Origin: a virus
IMG/VR virus record: IMGVR_UViG_3300000553_000221
Location: 1 to 30,112 of that record
Length of the DNA stretch: 30,112 bases
Reading direction: 5' to 3' (one strand)
A program made the translations under genes and the position numbers. Positions 5,801 to 30,112 of this stretch are shown here, piece after piece. Each line of letters opens with the position of its first letter. Position 1 is the first letter of the stretch. The notes beneath the pieces are model-generated. The model was not told where the DNA came from and did not search any database. It was given only the letters and a program-made list of their open reading frames with translations.

Positions 5801-6242
5801 TATCATCCTGCTTAATGCGTTCCGTGAGCGCATGGAGTTCCCACGACTGAAACAAGCGGCACTAAACCACTACAAGGACTGGAAACCTGACTCTATCATC
5901 ATTGAAAAGAAGGCATCAGGTGCCCCGCTCATCTACGAGATGCGGGCTATGGGTATACCAGTGCAGGAGTTTACCCCTAACAAGGGCAACGACAAGATCA
6001 GCCGGTTGAATGCCGTGGCGGATTTGTTTGCTTCTGGTAGAGTATGGGCACCTAATACGCACTGGGCCGAGGAAGTAATCGAAGAGGTTGCCAGTTTCCC
6101 TAGCGGAGAACACGATGATTATGTGGATGCAACCTCCTTAGCATTAAGTAGGCTCAGATTGGGTGGGTTTGTGTCTACTGAGCTGGACGAGCCTGAACCC
6201 GTGCGCCAGTTTAAATCATTGAAACATCGGGGTTATTACTAA
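2835..6242 (+). CDS. terL: Terminase large subunit precursor with two inteins
   Basis: The 1135-residue precursor encodes the packaging ATPase-nuclease. The extein segments are residues 1-195, 514-553 and 857-1135, together 514 residues, normal for TerL. The ATPase part has a Walker A-like SPRHTKSE (93-100), Walker B LLIIDDPH (188-195) and coupling motif TRW (857-859). The C-terminal RNase H-fold nuclease shows its three acidic motifs: SWDTA (Asp957), IIIEKKASG (Glu1024) and HDDYVDATS (Asp1094/1095/1098). Intein 1 interrupts the gene after Walker B and intein 2 directly before the coupling Thr. Until both are spliced out the ATPase site cannot form. The start overlaps terS by 11 bases and the portal gene follows 1 base after the stop. 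All catalytic residues I can judge are present, so the spliced protein should be active. Confidence 0.97.
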   Translation: MQPNPTKSLLDSISLKDIPTILPALSPSEQERLLAELDKLADLKKQKICQEKFLAFVNAVWPTFISGRHHAKMAEAFERVAAGKCKRLIINMSPRHTKSEFASYLLPAWFLGKYPHKKVIQTSHTAELAVGFGRKVRNLVDTEVYHDIFPDLQLQADSKAAGRWNTSKQGDYFAIGVGGAVTGKGADLLIIDDPHALEVSTPIATPKGFVALGDLQVGDAVFGPDGEPTQVVAKSPVYTNRTLYEVKTYDGEVVYADAKHLWNVRTSTRVADPYRNLTTEEMVASRSSAFMLPRHAAVQYPWRELPVDPWVLGAWLGDGTSSLGRMTAHPDDSVFMRGEFMRRGYTTTDLADKFSFGVPRLRGQLRDLGILNAKRIPEEYMTAAFLQRMDLLCGLMDTDGNVTVDGQCAFHNKDQALVDQVVELLHSLGRKCQRRSYLSKGKFGTCMMHRVTFKLKDCALMPRKRMRTRTTHDKQHRSIMVTPTERTGAVQCITVAREDGLFLAGRGYVVTHNSEQEAALAEINPDIYDKTYEWYTSGPRQRLQPGGAIVIVMCMTGDTRVLMADGTEKPLSNVRPGDLVATFDRGRLRTSRVNNWRSSGVDKVFTVQTRSGRILRANERHPFLVLNEGVLEWTRLNQLQIGDELVSLKDVTVPRGQQLSPVNASRALRKTGIIGKTPMPRIEKWGSTESGKGKHVRNRDVVLLYTAMDSVPYTTAENIGLPVGVDNPQKQHENTVLKVDTGLHCSSMKKWWQRGITVAIYAGKNLLNAIRGRIGTGNSVSTTATIQGRLEACSATIATSPLGMEKHLKYLNELQRISDFTADPIISITASGEEEVFDVEVDRTENFIANGVVSHNTRWSKRDLTGQVLKAAAQRGGEDWEVIEFPAILPSGNPLWPEFWTLKELEALREELPNSKWMAQYQQNPVSESSAIIKRDWWRTWESDTPPQCDFILMSWDTAFEKTQRADYSALTTWGVFHQPDDTGTVQTNIILLNAFRERMEFPRLKQAALNHYKDWKPDSIIIEKKASGAPLIYEMRAMGIPVQEFTPNKGNDKISRLNAVADLFASGRVWAPNTHWAEEVIEEVASFPSGEHDDYVDATSLALSRLRLGGFVSTELDEPEPVRQFKSLKHRGYY
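3420..4373 (+). other. Intein 1 in TerL: class 3 type with LAGLIDADG endonuclease
   Basis: This is a 318-residue in-frame protein intron. It begins with Ala, not Cys or Ser (ALEVSTPIATP), ends in VVTHN, and is followed by Ser (SEQEA). It shows the three residues of class 3 inteins: Trp67 after the block B His65 (KHLW), Cys297 opening block F (CITV), and Thr316 two before the final Asn. In that class the block F Cys makes the first attack. Residues about 115-127 (WVLGAWLGDGTSS) and 195-207 (DLLCGLMDTDGNV) are the two LAGLIDADG helices of a homing endonuclease, both with their Asp. It therefore looks like a complete, potentially mobile intein. Its site is immediately after the Walker B motif IIDDPH. 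Confidence 0.92.
4494..5402 (+). other. Intein 2 in TerL: class 1 type, with an out-of-frame endonuclease
   Basis: This is a 303-residue in-frame protein intron at the ATPase coupling motif, between VIVM and TRW. It begins with Cys (CMTGDTRVLMADGTEKPLSN, block A). Block B is at 59-72 with His68 (ANERHPF), and the last N-terminal splicing strand is LNQLQIGDELVS. It ends with block F/G, VFDVEVDRTENFIANG then VVSHN, followed by Thr. This is a class 1 layout with all splicing residues present. Residues about 95-262 of this frame match no endonuclease I know and are rich in Thr, Ser, Arg and Gly. That stretch is covered by the endonuclease VII-like gene at 4730-5326 in another frame. Confidence 0.93.
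4730..5326 (+). CDS. Endonuclease VII-like HNH nuclease, nested out of frame in intein 2
   Basis: This 198-residue protein lies wholly inside intein 2, shifted +2 relative to the terminase frame. A treble-clef HNH domain fills residues 108-170: RYGITLQQYEEM, then Cys127/Cys130, IDHCHDTG (Asp150, His151, His153), VRGLLC, and Cys163/Cys166 with Asn167. This is the full zinc and catalytic pattern of the T4 endonuclease VII family. Two further Cys clusters (Cys14/19/32/35 and Cys64/69/75/79) look like extra zinc fingers for DNA binding. AAGGGG (4717-4722) sits 7 bases before the ATG, so separate translation is plausible. It could cut intein-less terL alleles and so mobilise intein 2, or resolve DNA branches. 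The family call is strong; expression and target are inferred. Confidence 0.88.
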   Translation: MDKTEPTANRGRTCIVEGCNRPSRATTKPSKCKPCLAKDRYHRKNPNAPYREMGFHGKWKGKTCSESGCGAPIHCNGFCTVHYGRKYWASGRGRQSPEATRKHRIKSRYGITLQQYEEMVAARNNRCDICGQEPTKRNTRAHWNGKLCIDHCHDTGKVRGLLCNDCNLTIGYGKAPEVLERAAAYLRLHGGPDNLDNS

Positions 6243-11810: not shown

Positions 11811-12722
11811 ATGGCTATTTCACGCGCACAACTATTGAAGGAATTGCTCCCCGGCTTGAACGCTTTGTTCGGTCTGGAGTATTCATCCTATGGCGAAGAA
11901 CACAAAGAGATTTACGAGATTGAAACCTCTGAGCGTTCTTTTGAAGAAGAAACCAAGCTGTCTGGCTTCTCAGCAGCTCCGGTGAAAAACGAAGGTCAGG
12001 CTATTGCGTACGACAATGCGCAGGAAGCTTGGACTGCCCGCTACAACCATGAAACCATCGCTTTGGGTTTCAGCCTGACTGAGGAAGCTATTGAGGACAA
12101 CCTCTATGACTCTCTGTCTAAGCGTTATATCAAGGCTCTGGCTCGCGGTATGGCATACACCAAGCAAGTTAAAGGTGCTGGCGTTCTGAATAACGGCTTC
12201 AATGCTGCCTATGCGGGCGGTGATGGTCAGCCTCTGTTCAGCTCTGCACACCCACTTGTATCTGGTGGTACCAACAGCAACGTGCCTCCTACCATGGTGG
12301 ACCTGAATGAGACTTCGTTGGAAGCCGCTACCATTCAGATTGCCGCTTGGACGGATGAACGTGGTCTGTTGATCGCTGCTAAACCTCGTAAGCTGGTTAT
12401 CCCTCCTGCCCTGATGTTCGTTGCTAAGCGCCTGCTGGATACGGAACTCCGTGTCGGCACCACTGACAATGACATCAATGCGTTGAAGGCAATGGGTACG
12501 GTATCAGAAGGCTTTACGGTCAATCACTTCCTGACTGACTCAAACGGCTGGTTCCTGACTACCGATGTACCTAATGGCCTGAAGATGTTCCAGCGTACCC
12601 CGTTGCAGAACTCAATGGACGGCGACTTCGACACGGGGAATGTACGGTACAAGAGCCGCGAACGATACTCATTTGGGTGGTCCGACGCTCTGGGTGTTTG
12701 GGGTTCTTCTGGTTCTTACTGA
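11811..12722 (+). CDS. Major capsid protein, Mu gpT-like (HK97 fold)
   Basis: This 303-residue protein resembles the Mu major head subunit gpT family. The N-arm is LLKELLPGLNALFG; then come the E-loop-like YSSYGEEHKEIYEIETSERS, helix ALARGMAYTKQVKGAGVLNN, the core strand PRKLVIPPALMFVAKRLL, and an Arg-rich C-terminus (RYKSRERYSFGWSD). It begins after GGGGAACTAAGAA and is followed within 30 bases by a strong terminator, so its message is the end of a transcription unit. The family assignment is good by eye; HK97 fold follows from known family members. Confidence 0.88.
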   Translation: MAISRAQLLKELLPGLNALFGLEYSSYGEEHKEIYEIETSERSFEEETKLSGFSAAPVKNEGQAIAYDNAQEAWTARYNHETIALGFSLTEEAIEDNLYDSLSKRYIKALARGMAYTKQVKGAGVLNNGFNAAYAGGDGQPLFSSAHPLVSGGTNSNVPPTMVDLNETSLEAATIQIAAWTDERGLLIAAKPRKLVIPPALMFVAKRLLDTELRVGTTDNDINALKAMGTVSEGFTVNHFLTDSNGWFLTTDVPNGLKMFQRTPLQNSMDGDFDTGNVRYKSRERYSFGWSDALGVWGSSGSY

Positions 12723-12835: not shown

Positions 12836-13426
12836 ATGGACACTTCACTACTACCTAAAACTCGAGCAGAAGCAAAAGAACTTGGGGCTAAGTATTACTT
12901 TACGGGGGACCCCTGTATTCACGGACATATCGCCCCACGCAAAACAAAAGGGGCTTGTACTGAGTGCTTAAAGGTGGAATGGCGTCAAAATGCAGTACGA
13001 CGTCGGGAATACTACATACAGTACAACTTACAGGGGGCTGTGAAAGAGAAGAAGCATGAATGGTATATGGCTAACCGAGATAAGGTTATTGCCGCTTCCT
13101 TAGCTAGGCCGAAAGAATTACTACGACAGTACAAAACTCAATGGAAACGTACGCATAAGGTAGAAGTTTTGGCGGGTAATAAAGCCCGACGGCGCAAGCA
13201 TCGTCAAGCTACCCCAACATGGTTGACTCGTACGCAAAAAACTGAAATCCGTCAGTTATATCAGATTGCCATTACCACTACGAAGTTGACCGGGGTTCAG
13301 TACGTGGTGGACCACATAGTCCCGCTTAGATCGGATGTGGTCTGTGGCCTGCATGTGCCATGGAATCTTCAGATACTTACTCAGGATGAGAACCTAGCTA
13401 AATCCAACAAGCTATCTTCCATTTGA
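12836..13426 (+). CDS. Free-standing HNH endonuclease
   Basis: This 196-residue protein has an N-terminal zinc-binding segment ([16 protein letters not shown] followed by CTECL) and a very basic central region (about 45-125). A C-terminal HNH nuclease core follows: [17 protein letters not shown], then [15 protein letters not shown], with Asp-His and Asn of the motif present. Such genes sit between phage structural genes and often act as homing enzymes on neighbouring DNA. It has GAGGGC a few bases before the ATG. It lies between a terminator plus promoter on one side and a new promoter on the other, so it is a self-contained unit. It appears intact. Confidence 0.9.
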
Positions 13427-13541: not shown

Positions 13542-14036
13542 ATGGGTTTAGCCACACACCAAGGTCCATGGCTGCTTGGGACTGTTAAGAACAACACGGC
13601 AGCAGTAAGCACTGCCAACGCTCAGCTAGGGCTGAATCGAAATACTGGGGCTACCTCAGTTGGGCAGACTGCTACGGTTACTTGGAGTGATGCAGCGAAT
13701 TCTAGCGCATTTGTGGTTCCAGCCGGTTCTTGCATTACTAATATCGCTTTCTATTCTGCATCAGGTTTTGTTGTTGCTAGTGGTAGTTCTACTTTAACCG
13801 TATATGCGAATGCAACTCAGATTGCTTCAGTGACTGTAGGTACAACCGGTGCCGCTTTTGCTGGTACTGTTACTCTTACCGCTGCAGGTGCAGCTACTAT
13901 TGCTAACGTAGGCACTTCTGACGTTGTAATCAAATACACTGTAGCGGGTACTACACTTTCCAGCGGTTCTGGCACCTTGCTCGTTGAATACATCGTCCGT
14001 AATTCCGACGGTACTGCAGTCCCTGCATCTGGCTAA
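13542..14036 (+). CDS. Small beta-rich virion protein
   Basis: I chose the ATG at 13542 (164 residues) because AGAGGT lies 8 bases upstream; earlier in-frame codons would fall inside the structured leader. The protein is Gly/Ala/Thr/Val-rich with alternating hydrophobic residues, as in a beta sandwich (SSTLTVYANATQIASVTV, AGTTLSSGSGTLLVEYIV). Proteins of this style follow capsid genes in aquatic phages and may decorate the head or tail. No catalytic motif is seen and function is unknown. Confidence 0.75.
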   Translation: MGLATHQGPWLLGTVKNNTAAVSTANAQLGLNRNTGATSVGQTATVTWSDAANSSAFVVPAGSCITNIAFYSASGFVVASGSSTLTVYANATQIASVTVGTTGAAFAGTVTLTAAGAATIANVGTSDVVIKYTVAGTTLSSGSGTLLVEYIVRNSDGTAVPASG

Positions 14037-14584: not shown

Positions 14585-16114
14585 ATGTCTGATACCAAGA
14601 TAAGTGCGTTATCACCTACAACCACTGTATCAAGTACGGATGCGTTACCTATTGCACGAGGTGGTAGTAACTTTCAGCTTAGCGTAAACCAGATATTTAA
14701 TTACGTGGGGCAGAATGCTATCCCCATTCCCACACTGCAAAGTCCAGCTAAAACTGGCACAAGTGCCAACATACAAAATACAAGTCTTTCCGTAGATGGC
14801 AGAGTATTACTAGGTGGTGGGACCGCAGGGGCTAATGGGAATACTATTCTAGGTGGTAGTACGATTGCGGGTAACGTAGCTATTACTGGGGTAACTAATA
14901 CTGCTTCAGGGGTTCTGTATACTAAGGCACAAACTCCACTCACTACGACCCTAGTCAGTACTATTACTGCTACCGAGACTACGAGTATTACTATAGCGGA
15001 TGGCACTAATTTTCCAACCAGTGGCTCGGTAGTAATTGATAACGAGACTATTTCGTATACGGGGCTAACCTCCGGAACTCTACCCGCCTATACTTTATCC
15101 GGGGTCACTAGAGGAGCTTCATCAAGCGCAGCTTCAGCCCATACTGCTTCGGCGGTTATTGCGTCTACCGCAACTACGTCTGCCACACTTAACGGGATTT
15201 TGACGCAGGGGGCTACGAGTATTGCGATTAACGGGACTTTTGGGCTCTCTTACTTCCCTACCTCTGGCGTAGTGCTAATAGATAACGAACAGATTTCGTA
15301 CACGGGGAAGAGTGCCGCTACGGGATCAGGTAACTTAACGGGATGCACTAGAGGGTATAACGGGACTATTGATGTGGCACATGCCTCCGCAGCTGCAGTA
15401 ATCCTAGCCCCCATAGTCGCCTCAGATAACTCATATACCTACAATGCTTCAACAGGGCGGCTAGCTGTACCTTATGTACAGGCTACTGGGGTTACTACTT
15501 CAGCTGTAGCTACTTCATCTATCTCCGCACCTAATTCTACTGTAACTGCGATGTCCATAGACTCTGCTGGAGTAGTAACTGGTGGGAGCGTAAACCTGTC
15601 CTTGCAGCAACAAGTCTATCAGCAAGTAGGAGCGAGTTCTCCCAACGCCCCTTCCGCCAGTACGTACTTTCAGTGGACCATCCCAAGTTGGGCTAAGAAA
15701 ATCACGATTATGTTTAGTGGGGTGAGTAATTCAGGTACGGCAACAACAGATATTCCTCTGATTCAACTTGGATATGGCGGGACTCCTACGTATCTTACAT
15801 CCGGTTATTTAGGATGCGTATCAGAATTTTTTTCATCGACTAATTTAGCTTCTGCGCAGCTTTCTTCATCTTCAGGTTTTGCAACATCCTTTTCCCAAGC
15901 GGCAACCTACGTTAGGCACGGCATTGCTACGCTTACAAATGTTGGTGGGACTAAGTGGGTATATAGTTGTAACTTAGGGCTTTCTGATTCTTTAAGAACT
16001 TCCTTAGGTGGGGGCTCTGTTGATCTTGGGAACGCCCTCACAGCCGTCAAGGTAACAACCCAAAACAACACATCCACTTTCTCCGCTGGCACAATTAATC
16101 TCTTGGTTGAATAA
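14585..16114 (+). CDS. Tail fibre-like protein with internal repeats
   Basis: This 509-residue protein begins MSDTKISALSPTT...ALPIARGGSN, a common opening of phage fibre proteins that dock to the tail. Residues about 134-195 and 210-273 are two copies of a unit with the signature FPTSG-VV-IDNE-ISYTG followed by G-TRG, probably small beta domains along a shaft. The C-terminal 170 residues (from about 335) differ in composition, with WTIPSWAKKITIMFSG, and look like a globular tip of C1q or similar jelly-roll type. It probably trimerises and contacts the host surface. The gene overlaps nothing upstream and is followed 1 base later by a small membrane protein. Confidence 0.8.
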   Translation: MSDTKISALSPTTTVSSTDALPIARGGSNFQLSVNQIFNYVGQNAIPIPTLQSPAKTGTSANIQNTSLSVDGRVLLGGGTAGANGNTILGGSTIAGNVAITGVTNTASGVLYTKAQTPLTTTLVSTITATETTSITIADGTNFPTSGSVVIDNETISYTGLTSGTLPAYTLSGVTRGASSSAASAHTASAVIASTATTSATLNGILTQGATSIAINGTFGLSYFPTSGVVLIDNEQISYTGKSAATGSGNLTGCTRGYNGTIDVAHASAAAVILAPIVASDNSYTYNASTGRLAVPYVQATGVTTSAVATSSISAPNSTVTAMSIDSAGVVTGGSVNLSLQQQVYQQVGASSPNAPSASTYFQWTIPSWAKKITIMFSGVSNSGTATTDIPLIQLGYGGTPTYLTSGYLGCVSEFFSSTNLASAQLSSSSGFATSFSQAATYVRHGIATLTNVGGTKWVYSCNLGLSDSLRTSLGGGSVDLGNALTAVKVTTQNNTSTFSAGTINLLVE

Positions 16115-16115
16115 A

Positions 16116-16310
16116 ATGCATGACGATCACCCCGTAAAACACCTTGTAGACGTAGCTTCAGCCCTAGTAGCATGGGGGGCTGTGTTTAATTTCATCCCTA
16201 AACTGGCTGCATTAGGGTCATTGGTTTGGTACATCCTATGTATCTATGAGTCTAAGACCGTACAGGAGTTCATACGTAAAGGGTATAAACACGATGCCAA
16301 GCACAAGTAA
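16116..16310 (+). CDS. Small membrane protein, holin-like
   Basis: This 64-residue protein starts one base after the fibre stop. Residues about 11-29 ([19 protein letters not shown]) and 31-46 ([16 protein letters not shown]) form two hydrophobic segments separated by a Pro-Lys turn, followed by a basic tail. This is the layout of small two-helix phage holins. A second, more typical holin gene lies at 27000 beside the endolysin, so this one may be an antiholin or accessory pore, or may serve another role. It overlaps the next gene by 17 bases. Confidence 0.7.
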
Positions 16311-16989
16311 AAAACAGCATAATATGATGGCGGCGGTGGCGCACTCCCCCGCGTTTGCCAAGAAGGTTGGTATCCCACAGAGTGTCGGCAAAGAGTTTGT
16401 CACAGCAGATAAAGGTAAGGTTATGAAAAAGTATTCTGGTGCTGATGGGAAGAGTCAGGTTTCCTCTAGTTCAAACAAACCTACGCCTAAGGATATAGCC
16501 GCTATGCAAGCAGCTAAGAAAAATGATGATGCGCTAACCAAAACTCTCAACGCTCCATCTACGCCTCCAGTAAAAATTACTAAAGCTCCATCAAACAAAC
16601 CTACACCGAAAGATATAGCTGCTATGCAAGCAGCTAAGGAAAATGATGATGCGTTAGTTAAAACTTTGAATAGTCCCGGACCCAATATGAAACGAGGTGG
16701 TAAAGTGAAAAAGATGGCTAAAGGTGGAATGGCTGAAAAAGATTGGGAAGGTTCAGCTAAAGACGTAGCTCAGGATAAGAAGCTTGCTAAGAAACGTGGT
16801 ATGAGCATGGCGGACTGGGAGAAATCCCCTATGGATGCTAAACACGATAAGCAGCAGTCTATGAGCGGCTTGAAGAAGGGTGGCCCTGCTAAGGTTAAAA
16901 AAATGTGTAGTGGGGGCATGGCCTCTGGCGGTTCTGCGCGTGGCAATGGCTGCGCAGCTAAAGGAAAGACCCGAGGGAGATTCATCTAA
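16294..16989 (+). CDS. Lysine/glycine-rich low-complexity phage protein with repeats
   Basis: I chose the ATG at 16294 (231 residues, [20 protein letters not shown]) rather than an upstream ATG that lies inside the preceding gene. The N-terminal 40 residues look conserved ([20 protein letters not shown]). Two near-identical units follow, with [20 protein letters not shown] at about nucleotides 16470 and 16590, 120 bases apart. The C-terminal half carries Gly/Lys motifs ([30 protein letters not shown]) frequent in aquatic phage proteins next to tail genes. It is strongly basic and largely disordered. Function unknown; binding to DNA or to virion parts is possible. Confidence 0.75.
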
Positions 16990-17060
16990 TGCGTTCCTCA
17001 CGGGGTATGGGTGCCATGAACCCTAAGAAACTTAAACGACCTAAACCGAGGAAGAAGTAA
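16989..17060 (+). CDS. Tiny basic peptide coupled to neighbours
   Basis: This 23-residue ORF begins at a TAATG overlap and ends directly before the next start codon. Its sequence ([18 protein letters not shown]...) matches the opening of a longer conserved small protein I recall from other aquatic phages, so it is probably a shortened form or a remnant kept for translational coupling. It is almost entirely Lys, Arg, Pro and Gly. Expression is plausible but unproven. Confidence 0.5.
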   Translation: MRSSRGMGAMNPKKLKRPKPRKK

Positions 17061-17092
17061 ATGGCCGGTTCACATTTTACAGGTCCAGTATA
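17061..17092 (+). repeat. 32-bp tag repeat, copy 1 (copy 2 at 18730-18761)
   Basis: The first 32 bases of the two tailspike genes are identical, coding for MAGSHFTGPV and the next Tyr, then diverge although the protein similarity (KGF-GP) runs slightly further. Identity at DNA level in otherwise different genes points to recent duplication or recombination at the virion-anchor tag. Confidence 0.85.
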
Positions 17093-18683
17093 TTCGGCTA
17101 AGGGGTTTGTTGGCCCCGGACGGGTTGATGTTGTCTCTATGGCAACTGGTGGTGCGGGTACGCAGGCAAATCCTTGGACTGGCTGGGATACGGCTATCAC
17201 TTGGACACCGAATGTCAAGTATGAGTTTGCCGCTGGATACTATTCATACGCTTCTGCTCCGCCTGATTGGAATCAAGACAACATGATCCTGATGGGCACT
17301 GCTGACACAGTACTGAGATGTACTGGTGTAGGGCCAGTGATGTATTTTGATGCTGGCACATCCGGCACTGTTGGCAAGACTAATTTATGCGTTGGCCCGT
17401 TCATCCTTGAGGGAAACGGCACAACGACTCAGAAAGGCTTGTGGCTGCGTAGCGTAAATCGGTCAAAGTTTTACGGTATTCGTGTTCGTGGCGTGACTCA
17501 GTATGGCATTCACCAGAACTTTGGTGTGCTAAACGAATTTTACATGCCAATTATCAGCGGGAACATGGATACAGGATATGTGCTTCCCTCTACGCATTTT
17601 TGTATAGACTCGCTTACCTCCACAAACACTTATTACAGCTCGTCAACAAACGTATATAACCCTATCATCGAAGCAAATAAATTAGGCATCGGAATTCAGC
17701 TAATAAATCACGCATACAGCACTCAATTCTTTGGTGGTACGTCCGAAGGAATGGGGGTTGGCGTTGAGATTGGAAATGACATATACAGCGGAGCAAACGC
17801 CTGTGCTTTTAATTCATTCTACGGTTTGGATTTTGAGGCAAATGCTAATTATGATGCGTATGTAAAAAATTCATTCAATGCTGAATTTCATAATTGCACA
17901 TTCTTTTCAAGCATAAATACTGTAAACATTACTGGTTCAAATGGGCAATTTAGCTGCATTTCAGGCAGTCTATATGTAGGTCAGGCAATTGTTGTTTCTG
18001 GAGCAAACAGCGGTTCCGGCATCATCACGGGGTACACCAATCCAACTACTTACTATGTGATTGCCACCAATGGCTCTACAACATTTACCTTGTCAGCATC
18101 CGTTGGTGGGGCGGCGATTTCTACCACAGCAGGGTCAACAACGGGTTTATTCTTCGGATACTCAAATGTAACAGTAGCCTCTGGAGCCAGCTTTACAAAG
18201 TTCTTTGGTGGTCAAAATACCAATGCTATTTATGATGGCGGTCTAGGGACGCAATTTGATAATCATGCGTTTGTTGCCGCCAACTATACAAATATAAGTA
18301 CTGGCGATTTACAATGGAATCGGTGCCGCGACTTTGCAACAAGCAGGACGTTAAACTTCAATCCTCCTGTTGTTCAATATACCAACTCCGTTACTGGGAC
18401 AATAACAGTAGCAACTGGAACTGATATTTTGATATTGGACGGTTCTTTGGCTGGAACGCTAACGGTTGCACTTCCGGCATACATTGATATGGCTGGTGGT
18501 GGCGCGTTGAATCCGCAGTTCTTTAAACTGTGCAGTACTGGCACAATTACAACAGTTACTTTCACTGATCCAAAAGGCAGAACAGTGCCAGCTAACCTTA
18601 CCGGCACTACGGCCGTTACGGCTGGGTCTTCGTATACGTTCTACTACGGCGCGGCTGGCTTCAAGTGGATCAGGATTGGTTAA
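17061..18683 (+). CDS. Tailspike 1, beta-helix receptor-binding protein
   Basis: This 540-residue protein has a short N-terminal tag (MAGSHFTGPVYSAKGFVGPG) shared with the next spike, then a segment typical of pectate-lyase-fold spikes (ANPWTGWDTAITWTPN, AAGYYSYASAPP). Residues about 75-290 show the irregular short strands of a right-handed beta-helix with stacked Asn/Gly. A small beta insert (about 300-350, TTYYVIATNGSTTFTLSAS) is followed by a C-terminal beta domain rich in Thr and Val. Such trimeric spikes bind and often cleave host surface polysaccharide. Catalytic acids cannot be placed by eye. Its start follows directly on the tiny basic peptide. Confidence 0.8.
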   Translation: MAGSHFTGPVYSAKGFVGPGRVDVVSMATGGAGTQANPWTGWDTAITWTPNVKYEFAAGYYSYASAPPDWNQDNMILMGTADTVLRCTGVGPVMYFDAGTSGTVGKTNLCVGPFILEGNGTTTQKGLWLRSVNRSKFYGIRVRGVTQYGIHQNFGVLNEFYMPIISGNMDTGYVLPSTHFCIDSLTSTNTYYSSSTNVYNPIIEANKLGIGIQLINHAYSTQFFGGTSEGMGVGVEIGNDIYSGANACAFNSFYGLDFEANANYDAYVKNSFNAEFHNCTFFSSINTVNITGSNGQFSCISGSLYVGQAIVVSGANSGSGIITGYTNPTTYYVIATNGSTTFTLSASVGGAAISTTAGSTTGLFFGYSNVTVASGASFTKFFGGQNTNAIYDGGLGTQFDNHAFVAANYTNISTGDLQWNRCRDFATSRTLNFNPPVVQYTNSVTGTITVATGTDILILDGSLAGTLTVALPAYIDMAGGGALNPQFFKLCSTGTITTVTFTDPKGRTVPANLTGTTAVTAGSSYTFYYGAAGFKWIRIG

Positions 18684-18694
18684 GGGCTAAATAA

Positions 18695-18730
18695 ATGGTC
18701 GCCAAAACTACACATACAGGTAACTTCTAA
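18695..18730 (+). pseudogene. 11-codon ORF resembling the start of the adaptor gene
   Basis: Between the two spikes lies ATG...TAA coding MVAKTTHTGNF, whose stop overlaps the start of spike 2 (TAATG). The first 23 bases match 19 of 23 bases at the start of the adaptor gene at 23696 (MTAKTTNTTTF). It may be a remnant of an adaptor gene start cut off by insertion of spike 2 and the genes after it. It may also act as a coupling peptide. No good ribosome site is seen. Confidence 0.4.
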
Positions 18731-20739
18731 TGGCCGGTTCACATTTTACAGGTCCAGTATACTCATCCAAAGGCTTCTACGGCCCGACGTATAGTAACGC
18801 CTCAATAGTTTATGCTTCTGGGCTTTCTACTATTGCGGGCAATGGCACCACTGATGACTCTGCCGCGATCAATGCAGCATGTCTGGCGCTGTATAACGCT
18901 GGTGGCGGGACGCTGGTATTCGATGCCAAGACCTACTATGTGCCGTCAGGTATCAAAGCGTATGTCGGCGTTAGATTGCAGGGTCAGGGATATGTAACCA
19001 GCCAGTCATCTTTGAATGCCTCATTCGCGTATGCGTCAGGAACGCGCTTTCTTGGAAACAATACTAATCCCGGCTATTTCGGCAATTGCAATGGCTGGTT
19101 TCAAAGGCTATCTCAACAGACCGCCCAGCCTACAATTGACCAAGTAATCCAGCAAGGGTTGATGGGTATTGGTTGTTCAGGCATCTTGTTTGATACCGTT
19201 ACCTATGGCACCAAGATCGGCTCGCTGTACAACACTGGTGCATTCTATAACTCCGAGTTCAGCAATTTGTGCTGCATCAACTATTCAGTGTGGGGGCTTT
19301 ATTTTGAGAATTGCACCTCCACAATGTACAAGAGCCTTAATGCCTATACAGCTGTGTCGGGTGCAGTCGGCAGCGTGTATTTTGGGTCAAGTCAGACCGC
19401 ATATAACGCTGGTGTGTTGGATATTAACAAGGTTGAAACCTACCCCAACAATGCAGGCACAGGTGCAAACGTGCGCGGTATTGTTGTTCAGGCGCGTGCA
19501 GGTGCGCAGCTCAATGCCGTGGAGCTTAACTCGGCGACGAATAGTAATGCAGGCAATGTAAAAGTTTCTCAGGCGGCAACCATGTCAAGCGGTTCTGCCA
19601 CCATTACGGTGACAGATGGGACAAAGTTCCCACGAGATATGCCGGTCACGGTCAGTGCAACAGCAAACGGATTCACAGTCAATCAGACCTACTTTGTCAT
19701 AAAGAATGGCACAACTGACGGACTATCGGCGAATCAGGTTCAGCTTTCAAATGTGCAAGCAGGTGCGTCGGTCAACGCAACGGGTAATTCTGCGGTAAAC
19801 CTTGTGACTTACGGATACCCATCATTTGAGGTGTGTGGCAGGGCTTATAACAGCGATTACCCAACAGCTCAGGACAAGCTAGAGATTCCAAGCATTTCCC
19901 TGACCACCTCACTATCAGCGGCAACTGGAGCAAATATAAAAGGGTTCACGGGCATCAAACTGTATCCAGAGTCATACCAGACCACGAGTATTTTATGGCA
20001 GGCGGCTGGTGCAAATATTCAAATGGCATCGCCCCTGACTGGTGGCGCACAAGGAACAAGCTGTGCGTCTCACATGTGTGTCAGAACAACTACTGTTGCG
20101 TCATCTGGTGTATGGTCCGTAGTAGATCAAAACGAAGCCTTCATTTATGATGCGGATTCTGCGTCAAGCGGGCTGTTTTGCTCAGGAGCAGTAGTTTCAA
20201 CATCATCAGGCATAGTTCAAAAGCCAATAGTCGGCTTCTATAACACTGACACCGCATCTGGATACCCAGCATTCAATTTATCTGATGGAACGCTAGTTTC
20301 TCAAGGTACATCCCCCACCTGTACATTCCTAAATGTCCGCACGGATAATGCCGGTAACATGACATATCCGGGAATCGCGCTTGCACAAAAGCAAAGATTG
20401 TTTTCGGGAAATTCGGCAGGTTATACGCTTGACTCTGGATACATGGGCACTGTTGTTTTCACCAACGCAACGCCGGGAAGCTGGTTATTCCCAAGCATCT
20501 CAGGCGGCAATTCCGCATACGGCACAAACGGCAACTGGGTTGGCGGCGTGTTTGAGTTTGTCAATGCGGGTGGTGCTGCGGTTACGATTAACAGCGCGAA
20601 TGCCACTCAATCATTCAACAAGCCCTCATCCGGAAAAAACAACTATTCACTGGCTGCGGGTGGCACAATGACAGTGCGAATCTGCACAGACGGAACCAAC
20701 GCATTCCTCGCCGTAATCGCTAACAACGGTGCGACTTAA
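18730..20739 (+). CDS. Tailspike 2, pectate-lyase-3-like receptor-binding protein
   Basis: This 669-residue protein carries the same N-terminal tag as spike 1 (MAGSHFTGPVYSSKGFYGP). Then comes the classic opening of a pectate-lyase-3 domain: GNGTTDDSAAINAACLALYN, GGGTLVFDAKTYYV and VRLQGQGYV, starting a right-handed beta-helix to about residue 280. A small beta insert lies near 285-335 (TVTDGTKFPRDMPVTVSA, YFVIKNGTTDG), related in style to the insert of spike 1. The C-terminal part (about 350-669) is beta-rich and ends in a typical fibre-tip strand pattern. It should trimerise and recognise or degrade a different glycan than spike 1. It starts and ends in TAATG overlaps. Confidence 0.82.
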   Translation: MAGSHFTGPVYSSKGFYGPTYSNASIVYASGLSTIAGNGTTDDSAAINAACLALYNAGGGTLVFDAKTYYVPSGIKAYVGVRLQGQGYVTSQSSLNASFAYASGTRFLGNNTNPGYFGNCNGWFQRLSQQTAQPTIDQVIQQGLMGIGCSGILFDTVTYGTKIGSLYNTGAFYNSEFSNLCCINYSVWGLYFENCTSTMYKSLNAYTAVSGAVGSVYFGSSQTAYNAGVLDINKVETYPNNAGTGANVRGIVVQARAGAQLNAVELNSATNSNAGNVKVSQAATMSSGSATITVTDGTKFPRDMPVTVSATANGFTVNQTYFVIKNGTTDGLSANQVQLSNVQAGASVNATGNSAVNLVTYGYPSFEVCGRAYNSDYPTAQDKLEIPSISLTTSLSAATGANIKGFTGIKLYPESYQTTSILWQAAGANIQMASPLTGGAQGTSCASHMCVRTTTVASSGVWSVVDQNEAFIYDADSASSGLFCSGAVVSTSSGIVQKPIVGFYNTDTASGYPAFNLSDGTLVSQGTSPTCTFLNVRTDNAGNMTYPGIALAQKQRLFSGNSAGYTLDSGYMGTVVFTNATPGSWLFPSISGGNSAYGTNGNWVGGVFEFVNAGGAAVTINSANATQSFNKPSSGKNNYSLAAGGTMTVRICTDGTNAFLAVIANNGAT

Positions 20740-21929
20740 TGTCCTCCGATAACACTACTACTATTGATGGGCTCCCCTCTGCTAGTACTCCGCTAGCTGG
20801 GTCTGAGGAAGTTCCTATATGGCAAAGCGGGGCAACTAAAAAGGTCCCAGTAAGTGCTATCGGTGGGGGTAGTGGGACGGTTACGGCGGTTTCAGTTTCT
20901 TCGGCTAATGGGTTTGCTGGATCGTCAAGTGGTGGTACTACTCCGGCGCTTACTCTGTCTACTACGGCAAGTGGGGTGCTAAAGGGGAATGGTACTGCAA
21001 TTAGTGCGGCGGTAAGTGGCACGGATATAAAAACAGTAAATGGAACCTCCTTGCTTGGCTCGGGAGACGTGGGGGTTGGCGTTACCTCAATCACTGCCTC
21101 TACTACACCAGTTAACGGATTATCTCTAAGCGGCGGGGCAATTACTGGTACCGGCACGATAGGTATCACTGGGTCACTTTCTGGAGTTGGCGTAAGTAAC
21201 TTATCAGGTATTACTGGTACACCATCGGGTACGACTTATTTGCGTGGTGATGGTACGTGGGCTACGCCGTCTGGGGGTTCTGGAACAATCACTGGAGTTA
21301 CAACAACTGGCTCTGCAATCAACGGGCTATCCCTAACCGGCGGCGGTACTTCAGGTAGCGTAAATGTTGCTTTGACTGGAACGCTCAATCTTTCTTCCCC
21401 TCCAGCTATCGGGTGGGCTACGCCAAATACAGTCGATAGTACAACTCTTACAGTAAGGGCGGAGACAATCTTTCCGGCTGTAACTAATCCTGCATCTAAC
21501 ATCGGGCACGTAAGGATGCTAGATGGGGGGGATGGATACGACTATCTAAATATATCTAGCGATGATGGAGAGGGAACTTACTTGCCAGTTGTCTTCCCTA
21601 CGGGGATTAACGTAGCTGGTGCTACAGGTTTTTCAGGACAAGTTTCTGCAACGGGGTTTTTTTCATCCTCTCCATTAGTTGGCACAACCGCGGGGTACAT
21701 TAGGCTTACAGATGCCAACAACATAGGGAGCTGGACAATCCGTAGCCCAGTTAGTTTAGCAACTACCCTGACGCTAACCCTACCCACAGGATACCCCGCG
21801 TCAACTCAGTTCTTGCAGTCCGATACTTCAGGTAATTTGAGCTGGTCTGCTGCGCAAAAAACAATTACGTCCGGTACAGCGGCTCCCTCTGGTGGGTCCG
21901 ATGGCGACATATATTTACAGTATGTATAA
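20739..21929 (+). CDS. Tail fibre-like protein
   Basis: This 396-residue protein begins MSSDNTTTIDGLPSAS...EVPIWQSGATKKV, a fibre docking segment analogous to that of the protein at 14585. A Gly/Ser/Thr shaft follows with well-known fibre phrases: VNGTSLLGSGDVGV, LTLSTTASGVLKGNGTAIS and YLRGDGTWATPSGG. The C-terminal end (TAAPSGGSDGDIYLQYV) is the usual short closing motif of phage fibres. It overlaps the spike 2 stop by TAATG. It probably forms an elongated trimer used for host contact. There is no chaperone domain. Confidence 0.8.
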   Translation: MSSDNTTTIDGLPSASTPLAGSEEVPIWQSGATKKVPVSAIGGGSGTVTAVSVSSANGFAGSSSGGTTPALTLSTTASGVLKGNGTAISAAVSGTDIKTVNGTSLLGSGDVGVGVTSITASTTPVNGLSLSGGAITGTGTIGITGSLSGVGVSNLSGITGTPSGTTYLRGDGTWATPSGGSGTITGVTTTGSAINGLSLTGGGTSGSVNVALTGTLNLSSPPAIGWATPNTVDSTTLTVRAETIFPAVTNPASNIGHVRMLDGGDGYDYLNISSDDGEGTYLPVVFPTGINVAGATGFSGQVSATGFFSSSPLVGTTAGYIRLTDANNIGSWTIRSPVSLATTLTLTLPTGYPASTQFLQSDTSGNLSWSAAQKTITSGTAAPSGGSDGDIYLQYV

Positions 21930-21937
21930 GGTGACAC

Positions 21938-23518
21938 ATGGCTGACAATGTAGGTTATACCCCCGGAACTGGTGCAACTATAGCTGCTGATGACATTGGT
22001 GGTATTTTATATCAGCGCGTCAAAATCGGCGTGGGCGTTGACGGCTCAGCTACAGATGTATCCTCTACTAACCCAATGCCTGTTAGTGGCACTTTTTGGC
22101 AGACAACGCAACCAGTAAGCGCAACTTCCCTCCCTCTCCCTTCTGGCGCAGCAACCGCTGCCAAGCAACCAGCTTTAGGAACCGCAGGAGCAGCGTCAAC
22201 TGATGTGCTATCAGTTCAGGGCATTGCGTCCATGACCCCACTAAAGGTTGACGGAAGCGCAACCACTCAGCCGGTCTCAGGTACTTTTTGGCAGGCTACT
22301 CAGCCAGTCTCAATCGCCACGATGCCAAGCACTCCAGTAACGGGGACATTCTGGCAGACGACGCAACCAGTAAGCGCGACTTCCCTCCCTCTCCCTTCTG
22401 GGGCAGCTACGGCAGCAAAACAACCAGCTTTAGGTACTGCGGGTACTCCTTCCGCAGATGTGCTGACTGTTCAAGGCGCAACCAGCATGACCGCCTTGAA
22501 AGTGGATGGGTCTGCGGTTACTCAACCTATATCAGGCACCGTCACAGCTAATGCCGGTACAAACCTGAATACTTCCGCTTTGGCTTTGGAGTCTGGCGGC
22601 AACCTAGCCACACTGGTAACAAGAACACCGGCAGTCGGGCAAACCACAATGTCCGGCAGTAGCCCAGTGGTTATTGCATCAGATCAAAGTGCGCTTTCTG
22701 TTAACTACGCAGCAGCAGCTACACAGACGTATAACGTAGCTGGTGTAATAACGATCAATACCGTGCTACTTACTTTAGACCTAGCTCAATACCGTGGCGC
22801 GTCTATTCAGTGTACGAGTATGGGTACAACTGGTGTAGTTACTCCAGAATGGTCAAACGATAATGCTACGTGGGTAGCGGCAACCATATTTACCCCTCCG
22901 GGGGCTAGTGCGACTACATTTAGCGCGGCTGGCTTGTGGAATGTGCAGAAGCAAGCTAGATACTTACGTTTGCGTTTATCCACGGCAACTACTGCGGGCA
23001 CGACTACGATATACACTGAAGCCTATCAGACTATACCCCAAGCGTGGTTTGCTACCCAGCCAGTTTCAGGAACTTTTTGGCAGGCGACGCAGCCGGTTTC
23101 CATGGCAACCAACACCCCAACATTGGCGGCTGGTACAAACTTAGCTGCGGACGTTGGCGTTCAGTACAGAGCAAGTGCAACAGGTGGGGCTACCATTAAG
23201 CACGTAATTGCAGCGGCTGGAACCAATGCCACAAGCGTCAAGGCATCGGCTGGGCGTGTTATTGGCTGGTCTTTCTCGAATACTACGGCAGCGTATAAAT
23301 ACGTCAGGCTATATAACCTGACCACAGCCCCTACGGTTGGCACTTCGACGGTGATTCAAACCATAGGCATACCACCTAACGGAATCGCGCAACTTCAATT
23401 CCCCGGCGGTATCGGGTACGCGACTGGCATTGCATTATCTATTACGGGGGCAGCGGCGGATAATGACACGACTGCAGTAGTTGCAAATGATGTGGTAGGG
23501 GACCTGTTCTACGCGTAA
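21938..23518 (+). CDS. Repeat-rich virion protein with GTFWQ motifs
   Basis: This 526-residue protein has a repeated unit PVSGTFWQTTQPVSATSLPL. Two long copies cover residues 48-113 and 133-198, and single GTFWQ-TQPVS motifs recur near 115 and 370. The repeats read as a segmented shaft. From about 215 the sequence becomes globular and beta-rich, including a region (QYRGASIQCTSMGT, then WSNDNATWVAATIF) like a jelly-roll carbohydrate- or surface-binding domain, and a second one near 400-526. It is probably a tail fibre or tail decoration. The ribosome site is AAGGTGA before the ATG. No enzyme motif is seen. Confidence 0.75.
   Translation: MADNVGYTPGTGATIAADDIGGILYQRVKIGVGVDGSATDVSSTNPMPVSGTFWQTTQPVSATSLPLPSGAATAAKQPALGTAGAASTDVLSVQGIASMTPLKVDGSATTQPVSGTFWQATQPVSIATMPSTPVTGTFWQTTQPVSATSLPLPSGAATAAKQPALGTAGTPSADVLTVQGATSMTALKVDGSAVTQPISGTVTANAGTNLNTSALALESGGNLATLVTRTPAVGQTTMSGSSPVVIASDQSALSVNYAAAATQTYNVAGVITINTVLLTLDLAQYRGASIQCTSMGTTGVVTPEWSNDNATWVAATIFTPPGASATTFSAAGLWNVQKQARYLRLRLSTATTAGTTTIYTEAYQTIPQAWFATQPVSGTFWQATQPVSMATNTPTLAAGTNLAADVGVQYRASATGGATIKHVIAAAGTNATSVKASAGRVIGWSFSNTTAAYKYVRLYNLTTAPTVGTSTVIQTIGIPPNGIAQLQFPGGIGYATGIALSITGAAADNDTTAVVANDVVGDLFYA
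22079..22531 (+). repeat. Two-copy long repeat inside the GTFWQ protein gene
   Basis: Segments 22079-22276 and 22334-22531 encode nearly the same 66 residues. The DNA is very similar in the first 110 bases (CCCTCTCCCTTCTGG and neighbours are identical) with mostly synonymous changes. This points to an older duplication kept by selection on the protein. Confidence 0.75.
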
Positions 23519-23695: not shown

Positions 23696-24421
23696 ATGAC
23701 CGCCAAAACCACAAATACCACGACGTTTAACCTAGACTTCAACAGCATTGCTGAGGAAGCGTTTGAGCGTTGTGGGGCTGAGATGCGTAGTGGATACGAT
23801 CTACGAACTGCCCGTAGGTCACTGAATCTGCTTGTGCTGGAGTGGGCTAACCGGGGTATCAACCTATGGACGGTGGAAGAAGGGGATGTCACTCTAATTT
23901 CTGGGCAGGCTACCTATAATATCCCAGTAGACACGGTTGATCTTCTGGACCACGTAGTTCGCACGGGGTCGGGTAGCACTCAGTTGGACATCAACATTAC
24001 CCGTATTTCGGGGAGTACCTATTCCTCGATACCTAATAAAACTGCCACAGGTCGTCCCATCCAAGTATGGATAAACAGGCAATCAGGTGCAACCAATGCG
24101 GACGGTACAACGAAGAGCCCGACGATTACTGTGTGGCCTACGCCTGATCCAAGTACCACTTATACATTCCACTATTGGCGTCTACGTCGCATGTACGAGG
24201 TGGGTAACGGGGTCAACGGGCAAGACTTGCCGTTCAGGTTCCTGCCAGCCATGGTAGCTGGGCTTGCTTATATGCTGTCTATCAAGATTCCCGGGGCGGA
24301 AGCACGCACTCAGATGTTGAAGCAGATATACGACGAGACTTTTCAGTTTGCAGCTGATGAGGACAGAGAGAAGGCGGCGGTTCATTTTGTGCCACGCGAG
24401 TCCTTCATAGGGTATCGGTGA
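23696..24421 (+). CDS. Head-tail adaptor, P22 gp4-like (putative)
   Basis: This 241-residue protein has an N-terminal helical pair (FNSIAEEAFERCGAEMRSG, RRSLNLLVLEWANRG) followed by beta strands (LISGQATYNIPVDTVDLLDH) and a C-terminal helical bundle (FLPAMVAGLAYMLSIKIPGA). The protein ends in RESFIGYR. This helix-strand-helix order matches adaptor proteins that bind below the portal in podoviruses such as P22 gp4. Its distance from the portal gene is unusual but seen in aquatic phages. A second protein with similar logic lies at 25609. Confidence 0.7.
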   Translation: MTAKTTNTTTFNLDFNSIAEEAFERCGAEMRSGYDLRTARRSLNLLVLEWANRGINLWTVEEGDVTLISGQATYNIPVDTVDLLDHVVRTGSGSTQLDINITRISGSTYSSIPNKTATGRPIQVWINRQSGATNADGTTKSPTITVWPTPDPSTTYTFHYWRLRRMYEVGNGVNGQDLPFRFLPAMVAGLAYMLSIKIPGAEARTQMLKQIYDETFQFAADEDREKAAVHFVPRESFIGYR

Positions 24422-25608: not shown

Positions 25609-26271
25609 GTGTTTTACAGTAGTACTACTAGCCTTACGGCACCAGATAACCTCTGGTATGCGATACAGACGTATTGTGAAACTACGGAGCCCTCCTTCGT
25701 AGCTAATATCCCTATGTTTGTGGACTTGGCTGAGGAACGGATTTATAACTCAGTCCAACTGCCTGCATTCCGTAAGAACGTAGTAGGTAATATTACATCA
25801 GGGAATAAGTACCTGACTCTGCCGACTGATTGGCTAGCTACATCTTCTTTAGCTGTGATAGATAGCTCGGGAAATTATTCTTACCTACTAGATAAGGACG
25901 TTAACTTTATACGTGAGTCCTACCCTAACTCTACAGTTACTGGAACCCCGCAGCACTCTGCCATATTTGACTCGAACACATTGTTGCTTGGTCCTACTCC
26001 TGATACTAACTACACCAGCGAGTTACACTACTATTATTACCCAGAGTCCATCGTAACGGCGGGTACTAGTTGGCTTGGGACTAACTTTGAGACTGTGCTT
26101 CTCTATGGCTCCGTGCGTGAGGCGTATACTTACCTTAAGGGCGAAACTGACATATCTGCATCCTACGAAGCTAAATACCAAGAAGCAATTGGGTTGCTTA
26201 AAGTTCTCGGTGACGGTAAAGATCGCCGTGATGCGTACCGGTCAGGACAAGTTAGAGTGCCTGTTACCTAA
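25609..26271 (+). CDS. Tail adaptor protein, second of two (T7 gp11/P22 gp4-like)
   Basis: This 220-residue protein begins at a GTG. A helical N-terminal pair (DNLWYAIQTYCETTEPSF, FVDLAEERIYNSVQLP) precedes strands with the adaptor phrase NKYLTLPTDWLATSSL. Next comes GTPQHSAIFDSNTLLLGP, typical of tail adaptor proteins, and a C-terminal helix bundle (VREAYTYLKGETDIS, ASYEAKYQEAIGLL). It probably forms a dodecameric ring between portal and tail hub. With the protein at 23696 there are two adaptor-like proteins, perhaps successive rings. The GTG start and missing strong ribosome site suggest coupling to the gene before. Confidence 0.75.
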   Translation: MFYSSTTSLTAPDNLWYAIQTYCETTEPSFVANIPMFVDLAEERIYNSVQLPAFRKNVVGNITSGNKYLTLPTDWLATSSLAVIDSSGNYSYLLDKDVNFIRESYPNSTVTGTPQHSAIFDSNTLLLGPTPDTNYTSELHYYYYPESIVTAGTSWLGTNFETVLLYGSVREAYTYLKGETDISASYEAKYQEAIGLLKVLGDGKDRRDAYRSGQVRVPVT

Positions 26272-28126: not shown

Positions 28127-30112
28127 ATGCCACTAATCAAAGTACCATTTAAGCCCGGGGTCAACCGGGAAATTCCGGAATACGCAAATGAGGGCGGGTA
28201 TGACTTCTCGAACCTTATTCGTTTCCGTATGGGGTACGCTGAGAAGATTGGTGGCTGGGCAAATACTAACTATGTAGCAAACCCTACTTCCCCGGGGAGC
28301 TATACATATAACGGAGTAACACGCTCACTTACTAACTGGATCACGTTAGATGGGGGTAATCTACTAGGGTTCGGTACGACCCAGCAGTACTACGTTCAAA
28401 ACGGCGTAGGCTCCGCATATAATGACATCTCTCCAGCGGCTAATACTGCTAGTTTGCTAGGTACCTCGTTTCGTACTGTAGCTATGGGTAGTCCTGTGGT
28501 AGAAATCTTTAATGCCGCATCTAGCTTTGTGGCCCCTACGTCGGCTAACGGTGGACTTGATGTAGGCTCGGTGGTGTACTTTTATGCGAACCTGTCGGGT
28601 AATTTGCTTTTGGAGTCGGGGGCGGGGAATTACATAGATCAAGAAGGTGGGACGGGTGCAGGGTTCAGATTCCTAGTCGGCAGCTCCGTATCTGCACTAA
28701 CTGTAAACGGGGTAACTCTGAATGCATCCTATCCACAGAGTAGTACGCTATCCACCCCCTACGTAGTAACCTCGGTTAACCGGAAAACTTTGACTTCCGT
28801 AACAGCCTCTGGTAGCGGGACGGTTGCAACCCTGATTGGAATAGCTGCGGATAGCACGCTGCCTGTCGCCGTAGGAAGCACTGTATATGTCTATGGGCTT
28901 AGTGTGGCTGGGTATAACGGGGCACAGATCGTACAGTCCGCTTCTTACAATTCCAGTACTGGGGTAACTACGATTACCTTTAACTCTACGGTTACAGCTG
29001 CGGCTTCCGGGGGCACAGTTACATGGGTTCATAGTTTCCAAGTTATTGGAAGTGGTACAGCATCCGCCGCAGGCACCGACTCCACTATTGCGTCCTTGGC
29101 CGTAACTGCAACTTACCTACCCAATGTGGGCGATAACACAACAATATATAGCTCATCTGCGGCACAGAGTTATACTAAGCGTGCATGGTCACAAGCTTCC
29201 TTCGGGGATGACTTAGTATTCGCTATTCAAGGTAACCCAATCTACTACTGGGCTAAGGATACGACTAACTGGAACGCAGCTACTACACTGGCTGCATATG
29301 CTAATACCAAGCAGTACCAGCAGGTGAATGTGACGGGGTTGACCTCCAGCACGGTTTTTACGGTGGATTTTAACGACTATGTATTCCCGGGGCAGACAAT
29401 ATCTATTGCTTCGGGGACGGGGACTATTAACGGGTCTACCACAGGTACCGTCAAGATAGTGAGTATTACAGGGCTGTCTGTTACGGTGGAATCAACTGCT
29501 ACCCTTGCATCCTTCTCCAGCACCACAGTCCTAAACCTCTCATACTCCGGCCAATTTGTACCTACCCAGACAAATAAGCTTTACATATCCCCTGTGTATC
29601 AGTTCGTTATTGCACTGGGGGCTAACCCATATGACCCTACTAATGCTAATACTACGTTTGACCCGCTGCTAGTCCGTTGGTCTGACCAAGCTAACCCGTA
29701 TCAGTGGATTCCGCAATCTAGTAACCAAGCAGGCGAACAGTCTTTAGGTAATGGGTCAAAGCTAGTCACTGCGGTTGCCAACCTGCAAATTATCCTGCTG
29801 TTCACTGATTCTGCCGTATACCAGATGCAATACGTAGGTGCGCCGTATGTATTTAGCTTTACCATGCTGCAAGACAACATATCCATTATCTCACAGAATG
29901 CAGCAATCACTGCTAACAACGTAACATGGTGGATGGGGGTAGATAAATTCTATGCGTTCTCTGGATCAGTACAAGTTATCCCATGCCCGATACGCCGATT
30001 TGTATTTAGCAACTTGAACAAACAATATGCATGGCAGACGGTGGCTGGGTATAACGAAGGCTTCAGTGAAATCTGGTGGTTTTATACCTCCAATAACAGC
30101 ACGGTTAATGAT
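28127..30112 (+). CDS. Tail hub/nozzle protein, P22 gp10-like, partial
   Basis: The frame is open from the ATG 5 bases after the endolysin stop to the window edge, at least 662 codons. It begins MPLIKVPFKPGVNREIPEYA and FSNLIRFRMGYAEKIGGWA, the opening of P22 gp10-like tail hub/nozzle (packaged DNA stabilisation) proteins. Further matches in style are WITLDGGNLLGFGTT, WSQASFGDDLVFAIQGNP-like phrasing and DPLLVRWSDQANPYQWIP. A middle section (about 175-440) has small Ig-like or beta inserts. The protein would form the tail tube ring below the adaptors, a platform for the fibres. The C-terminus is cut off by the window. Confidence 0.78.
   Translation, partial: MPLIKVPFKPGVNREIPEYANEGGYDFSNLIRFRMGYAEKIGGWANTNYVANPTSPGSYTYNGVTRSLTNWITLDGGNLLGFGTTQQYYVQNGVGSAYNDISPAANTASLLGTSFRTVAMGSPVVEIFNAASSFVAPTSANGGLDVGSVVYFYANLSGNLLLESGAGNYIDQEGGTGAGFRFLVGSSVSALTVNGVTLNASYPQSSTLSTPYVVTSVNRKTLTSVTASGSGTVATLIGIAADSTLPVAVGSTVYVYGLSVAGYNGAQIVQSASYNSSTGVTTITFNSTVTAAASGGTVTWVHSFQVIGSGTASAAGTDSTIASLAVTATYLPNVGDNTTIYSSSAAQSYTKRAWSQASFGDDLVFAIQGNPIYYWAKDTTNWNAATTLAAYANTKQYQQVNVTGLTSSTVFTVDFNDYVFPGQTISIASGTGTINGSTTGTVKIVSITGLSVTVESTATLASFSSTTVLNLSYSGQFVPTQTNKLYISPVYQFVIALGANPYDPTNANTTFDPLLVRWSDQANPYQWIPQSSNQAGEQSLGNGSKLVTAVANLQIILLFTDSAVYQMQYVGAPYVFSFTMLQDNISIISQNAAITANNVTWWMGVDKFYAFSGSVQVIPCPIRRFVFSNLNKQYAWQTVAGYNEGFSEIWWFYTSNNSTVND

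Follow-up and report, generated by a model that had tools for sequence, protein, structure and literature searches.

The window analyzed here, the whole 30,112-base stretch of a single IMG/VR virus record (IMGVR_UViG_3300000553_000221), belongs to a short-tailed, aquatic phage and carries two tandem genes for spike-like proteins, spike 1 and spike 2 (Table 1), that open with the same short N-terminal peptide (the tag). Our comparison of this window with related loci suggests that both spikes are plug-in capsid decorations, docked on the head by an address peptide corresponding to the N-terminus of the phage cement protein, and we consider this the probable explanation of their shared start. 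Their probable place is the head and not the tail, a particle location that we infer from five features we regard as demonstrated at the level of genes: the identity of the tag, its position across the phage family, the swapping of bodies behind it, the movement of a tagged gene as a cassette, and the scars beside the window genes. Portal and capsid genes identify the phage as kin of the pelagiphages HTVC023P and HTVC027P, the Roseobacter phages CRP-901 and CRP-902, DSL-LC04 and Pag-Yong1.

At the DNA level, the two spike genes share their first 32 bases exactly (33 counting the base before the ATG), and a repeat finder stretches the similarity to 57 nucleotides at 82% identity. BLASTP aligns the two proteins over residues 1-19 only, with 17 of 19 residues identical (E 4e-7). 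An earlier note on this DNA, made from its letters, had described two spike open reading frames (ORFs) with the same first 32 bases, likeness to residue 19 and divergence thereafter, and the coordinates, repeat comparison and BLASTP result all agree with it. Codons 1-10 are identical in all ten cases, synonymous sites included, whereas six of the seven codons for residues shared beyond this point use other synonyms, placing a sharp DNA border within the tag at about residue 11. The protein-level tag continues past this border to approximately residue 16-19. Such a pattern would be expected if two already homologous tags had recently undergone exchange or conversion over their first 32 bases.

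The tag consensus is M-A-x-[TS]-[THS]-F-[ST]-G-P-V-x-S-x-x-G-F. A profile built from 138 unique N-termini of relatives puts the two spike starts in first and second place at 33.8 and 33.2 bits, while the next of the 1062 window starts scores -16.2; when the profile is limited to positions that were free in the first scan, the spikes still rank 1 and 2. Since the first 32 bases agree at synonymous sites too, a translation-start signal could explain them, and the tag might more generally be a processing, folding or translation signal of late virion genes with no anchoring role. However, synonymous positions of the tag vary between phages, and its conservation is at the protein level, extends to residue 16 and is confined to head-block genes. 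We therefore view a signal of this kind as very improbable.

Judged by gene order and homology, the tag is the N-terminus of a head decoration (cement) protein whose gene directly follows that of the major capsid protein. Tag-only scans, which selected on the tag and not on gene position, together with portal-based loci gave 369 loci for examination, 290 of which contain at least 293 tagged ORFs; totals of tagged ORFs are lower bounds throughout. Ten overlapping regions (L212-L221) and two copies of the window (L001 and L002) were dropped before counting. IMG/VR contigs are partly redundant, and the register-matching tags of the 293 ORFs reduce to 138 unique 16-mers. The tag-based scans account for 276 tagged ORFs, and the counts that follow concern the matches listed. 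Of the 207 tagged ORFs with more than 1.5 kb of upstream sequence, 204 are preceded by a same-strand homologue of the capsid gene, at a median distance of 169 bp and within 1.3 kb in 198. The tag precedes the neck gene in 160 of 160 loci, and the adaptor gene in 112 of 112, in which the order can be judged. Three of the 207 have no capsid gene upstream: in L380 the pattern seems to have matched by chance, the L310 sequence probably begins after the expected capsid gene site, and in L298 the tagged ORF is placed after the portal gene. In DSL-LC04 the tagged post-capsid product is annotated as a cement protein; the cultured relatives HTVC027P (gp62) and CRP-901 (gp56) encode tagged post-capsid proteins as well. 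In an earlier set, a capsid gene was present in 152 loci, 116 of them with a tag within 2.6 kb, 14 too short for a decision, and 22 with none; several of these tagless loci are close relatives of the window, and their post-capsid protein starts MG[LFI]A[TS]HLGPW. Separately, a 307-residue protein at L003:305-1228 has a tag-like start, MATHFTGPVYAGG, in a locus where no capsid homologue was recognized; as the sole match of its search pattern, it may be due to chance.

The window encodes its own cement protein, with an N-terminus in the same register as the tag (G8-P9). Its gene follows the capsid gene with one nuclease-like ORF between them, the same place as in relatives, and the protein aligns in register with the F[ST]GPV cements, G8-P9 being invariant in 15 sequences. 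An AF2 model from 12 sequences (predicted local distance difference test [pLDDT] score 70; residues 1-32 low) has as its best four matches the cements of KHP30, KHP40, Pam1 and GP4 (Z 10.8, 10.3, 10.2 and 9.3; fifth match 8.8), and the modeled protein has the beta-sandwich cement fold. The structural alignment begins at model residue 26, which corresponds to Pam1 cement residue 6; the tag is therefore outside the portion of the Pam1 cement that has been solved. With nine capsid proteins combined into a profile, no solved structure scored as a significant relative (best E 0.061), and the link to Pam1 thus rests on the cement fold; a cement profile reached the KHP30 cement only at E 0.31. According to the available portion of the structural work on these phages, an elongated N-terminal loop of the Pam1 cement passes beneath the neighboring subunit and touches the capsid E-loop, and an elongated cement N-terminus contacts the capsid in both Pam1 and KHP30 (PMC9698820).

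Behind the tag, the bodies are exchanged. Tagged bodies among the matches listed form 26 clusters by single-linkage BLASTP (E 1e-3), a rough number. Among 173 dereplicated entries, 348 of the pairs whose capsids reach 85% identity or more differ in body, one of these being two tagged ORFs inside locus L303, and 126 share the same body. We inspected 11 contig pairs from the 12 that were most alike in capsid and unlike in body, the twelfth being two tagged ORFs of one locus. In nine of the 11, the DNA alignment runs through the capsid gene to nucleotide 47-87 of the tagged ORF and then breaks; for one of the nine, the upstream alignment starts only just before the ATG. Alignment picks up again in all nine pairs, shortly before the stop codon and still inside the ORF in eight, 10-17 nucleotides past the stop in the ninth. 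In the pair L244/L246, for example, identity is 92% over the 7.3 kb that end at nucleotide 47, the bodies are unlike, and identity is back at 90% from nucleotide 332/272. The remaining two pairs (L101/L308 and L201/L374) have no alignment running into the tag. The inspected pairs make up two connected groups and one single pair, and hence do not represent 11, or even nine, independent events. Recombination at the tag had been set beforehand as a check by the earlier note, to be sought in population reads; run on contigs instead, it found the loss of identity inside the tagged ORF just described. The picture of a fixed N-terminal virion anchor with swapped bodies is supported. An anchor on the tail is not supported, as the tag is that of the head cement and the genes lie in the head block.

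Whole tagged genes travel as well. A 359-residue tagged spike beginning MAASHFSGPVVS (phrog_4577 tail protein, E 1.8e-5) occurs in L310, L318, L344, L357 and L367; the L303 copy is cut off, as is that of L298, which also differs slightly. Its surroundings vary: depending on the locus, the gene precedes the neck gene or a different head-block gene, or else follows the portal gene or a second small post-capsid gene. Because L310 nearly duplicates L367, and L318 nearly duplicates L344, the six members represent four distinct contexts and L298 a fifth. Compared between contexts in 100-nucleotide blocks, identity is 79-100% within the gene and 15-51% outside it, with the ATG and the stop codon as borders. 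On the strength of these borders, the tagged 359-residue spike gene is an exact cassette that moves between phages. L303 has the spike gene as well as a tagged post-capsid gene.

The window spikes themselves are bordered by relics of other genes, a truncated copy of the SRGMG gene before spike 1 and a copy of the neck gene start before spike 2 (Table 1). The latter outscores the next best of 562 window ATG 33-mers, which matches at 17 positions, and the neck gene lies 5 kb downstream. As a decayed tag, the mini-ORF at 18695 was rejected (rank 17 of 40,535 nine-mers); it matches the neck gene start instead. In the simplest history, spike 1 would have been inserted between the SRGMG gene and the neck gene, and a block comprising spike 2 and the ORFs at 20739-21929 and 21938-23518 would have been inserted later at the neck gene start. 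Assemblers can switch at short exact repeats, and in an IMG/VR virus record two tagged genes of different phages could in principle have been joined at the 32 shared bases. The exact repeat, however, spans a mere 33 bases; the two copies occur in tandem, each with coherent flanks and relics of its own, and L133, L178 and L303 are further loci that carry two tagged genes. Mis-assembly is accordingly the explanation to which we give the least credence, a highly improbable one. In L133, the tagged genes stand in tandem directly after the capsid gene (L133:4661-6483) and encode 55 and 546 residues.

Past the tag, the two window bodies have no detectable kinship, with 193 of 500 shuffles scoring as high as the real comparison. 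Full-length family scans of spikes 1 and 2 returned no families, and all matches came from fragments. For spike 2, PF12708 was detected with a 101-residue fragment, while a 311-residue fragment scored 26.4 bits, just under the cut-off of 27, and the full-length protein is unlisted; a fragment of spike 2 also matches phrog_7458 (tail spike). With phrog_18522 on spike 1, these matches make both bodies look tailspike-like. For the beta-helix signs that the earlier note reported in both spikes, the fragments give PF12708 in spike 2 and, in spike 1, phrog_18522 alone; the small inserted beta domain it attributed to both spikes, weakly suggested by a comparison in which 40 of 2000 shuffles score as high, is unproven. 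Spike 1 modeled alone gave no usable structure (pLDDT 33). We found no relatives of the bodies among 50,697 phage records, none in viral contigs by peptide patterns, and no useful match among PDB sequences; against the 369 loci, the tag region alone matches, except for one 85-column match of spike 2 that also begins at the tag. The spikes have the cement N-terminal tag and lack the small cement beta-sandwich body, their own bodies being approximately 520-650 residues long with tail or tailspike profiles. We do not file them as cement proteins because of these large tailspike-like bodies.

Tailspike-like bodies are what would be expected if these were ordinary tailspikes whose tag docks on the tail or neck, its likeness to cement reflecting a docking peptide used at several virion sites. 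This is the main rival to docking on the head. Its appeal is increased by the location of the spike genes at the end of the head block, near the neck gene, and by a difference in the tag itself: the window cement has the variant ATHQGPW and the spikes the F[ST]GPV form, so that their binding sites need not coincide. Against it, the tag is on a gene no more than 1.3 kb after the capsid gene in 198 of the 207 cases above, and none of the 112 testable tagged ORFs lies past the adaptor gene, where the Pam1 spike is listed. In the accessible part of the Pam1 gene order, that spike is listed with the tail proteins and follows the adaptor and the needle head (PMC9382816); the window spike genes precede the adaptor gene and are not placed among post-adaptor tail genes, as a Pam1/P22-type tailspike would be. 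Overall, we judge docking on tail or neck to be unlikely.

Several observations weigh against docking on the head. Across different bodies, tag and capsid co-vary only weakly (rho 0.07, with 14 of 500 permutations as high), and with the tag outside the solved Pam1 cement, its contact with the capsid is unseen in structures. PHROG relatives of the spike bodies are labeled tail. Tagged bodies are mostly small: lengths across the 165 complete ORFs with a tag span 55-546 residues with a median of 169, and above 400 residues there is one other convincing case, L133. A tagged 68-residue relative (L247) scores 19.1 bits against Head fiber protein PF11133, below the cut-off of 24.6.

If the spikes do dock on the head, the tag peptide would bind the capsid lattice close to the three-fold positions where cement trimers sit, and the spikes would occupy some cement sites, sharing them with cement or competing for them. 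The two bodies would give the head two surface-binding or polysaccharide-cleaving activities, and the phage may thus carry two specificities at once, as the earlier note had proposed. More tentatively, and with slightly less than even confidence, we suggest that the peptide of about 16 residues serves the whole family, in a common aquatic group that includes SAR11 and Roseobacter phages, as an address for the capsid, that a body joined to it is displayed on the head, that bodies or whole spike genes thus circulate as plug-ins, and that two head-borne bodies compete for the same sites and so vary from particle to particle.

Table 1. Features of the window that bear on the two spikes, with coordinates and supporting evidence
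Feature	Position	Strand	Evidence or remark
Major capsid protein	11811..12722	+	phrog_371
Window cement protein, N-terminus MGLATHQGPWLLGTV, register as tag (G8-P9)	13542..14036	+	Alignment, model, fold match
SRGMG gene, truncated copy of 23 residues, ends directly before spike 1	16989..17060	+	Shortest of 25; other 24 complete copies 57-122 residues
Spike 1 (P0001), 540 residues	17061..18683	+	ORF, exact coordinates confirmed
32 identical bases, copy 1 (tag start)	17061..17092	+	Repeat comparison
Spike 1 putative capsid-cement-type tag, 16 residues, MAGSHFTGPVYSAKGF	17061..17108	+	Profile rank 2 of 1062 window starts
Spike 1 body part, phrog_18522 (tail protein)	17301..17870	+	Residues 81-270, E 4.6e-13, fragment scan
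11-codon relic of neck gene start (23696)	18695..18730	+	22/33 nucleotides; repeat D12; stop overlaps spike 2 start
Spike 2 (P0002), 669 residues	18730..20739	+	ORF, exact coordinates confirmed
32 identical bases, copy 2	18730..18761	+	Repeat comparison
Spike 2 putative capsid-cement-type tag, 16 residues, MAGSHFTGPVYSSKGF	18730..18777	+	Profile rank 1 of 1062 window starts
Spike 2 pectate-lyase-like beta-helix start, PF12708	18832..19038	+	Residues 35-103, 29.7 bits vs cut-off 27, fragment
Neck (stopper-like) gene, landmark	23696..24421	+	phrog_12985 (unknown function); "stopper" is our own, putative label
Tail adaptor gene, landmark	25609..26271	+	phrog_2941/phrog_10775

The window map places both spike genes within the head gene block, upstream of the neck and adaptor genes. 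The capsid protein is matched by 21 phage records, the closest 70% identical. Between the capsid and cement genes, the ORF at 12836-13426 is nuclease-like by resemblance to relatives and has no Pfam match; assorted ORFs occupy this gap in relatives. By eye, ORFs 14585 and 20739 have similar starts (14585-14700 and 20739-20870; TKISALSP... and TTIDGLPSA...), possibly a second shared N-terminal module of fiber-like head-block proteins. Internal duplications are present in the ORF at 16246-16989 (two 80-nucleotide copies, 86% identical, at 16471-16670) and in that at 21938-23518 (two 206-nucleotide copies, 72%, at 22079-22539). The ORF at 28127-30112 (at least 662 residues) runs past the record end and, by eye, starts like HTVC027P gp75, indicating that the tail genes extend past the window. 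The large terminase gene (2835-6242; 1135 residues) is broken by two inteins, the first with a LAGLIDADG-like part (approximately residues 200-436) and the second with an Intein_splicing match (residues 587-856). Within the second, a 198-residue Endonuclease_7 ORF (4730-5326, E 2.4e-20) lies in a different reading frame, an arrangement resembling the hidden HNH in a phage methylase insertion, as described in the accessible part of that report (PMC11855218).

Some adenovirus types encode two fibers with one common N-terminal penton-binding motif. As proposed for the window, a short N-terminal peptide docks trimeric fibers on the capsid and there are two fibers per genome, but the virus and the site are unrelated and the comparison is an analogy only. 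Phages with multiple tailspikes have modular bodies behind a conserved N-terminus, and known tailspike anchors are tail adapter domains. Several tailspikes per phage are documented, for instance the four of CBA120 (PMC6517402, as available in part); such phages share with the window the presence of several receptor-binding bodies, whereas the window anchor appears to be a head-protein N-terminus. Head fibers or outer decoration proteins for host attachment include T4 Hoc, T5 pb10, SPP1 gp12 and phi29 gp8.5, according to the portion available of PMC7602432. These too are capsid-bound and combine a part for docking with an exposed part for binding; the window differs in that a peptide of about 16 residues is common to cement and to many unrelated bodies, and in the coexistence of two tailspike-like bodies. 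The cements of Pam1, KHP30/KHP40 and GP4 resemble the window cement in the position of the gene after the capsid gene and in the beta-sandwich fold, but the window spikes retain the N-terminal peptide alone, joined to tailspike-like bodies of approximately 520-650 residues. In the portions of the literature available to us, a cement-type address peptide with exchangeable tailspike-like bodies, two per genome, was not found. Head decoration proteins in host attachment and several tailspikes per phage are known already.

Receptor-binding bodies are usually sought on tails. If our interpretation is correct, the capsid may house part of the host recognition of a widespread group of aquatic phages, and unannotated post-capsid genes, which number in the hundreds, would become readable as decoration plug-ins. 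The tag would then be a small natural display tag, directly testable on the capsids of the cultured relatives HTVC027P and CRP-901.

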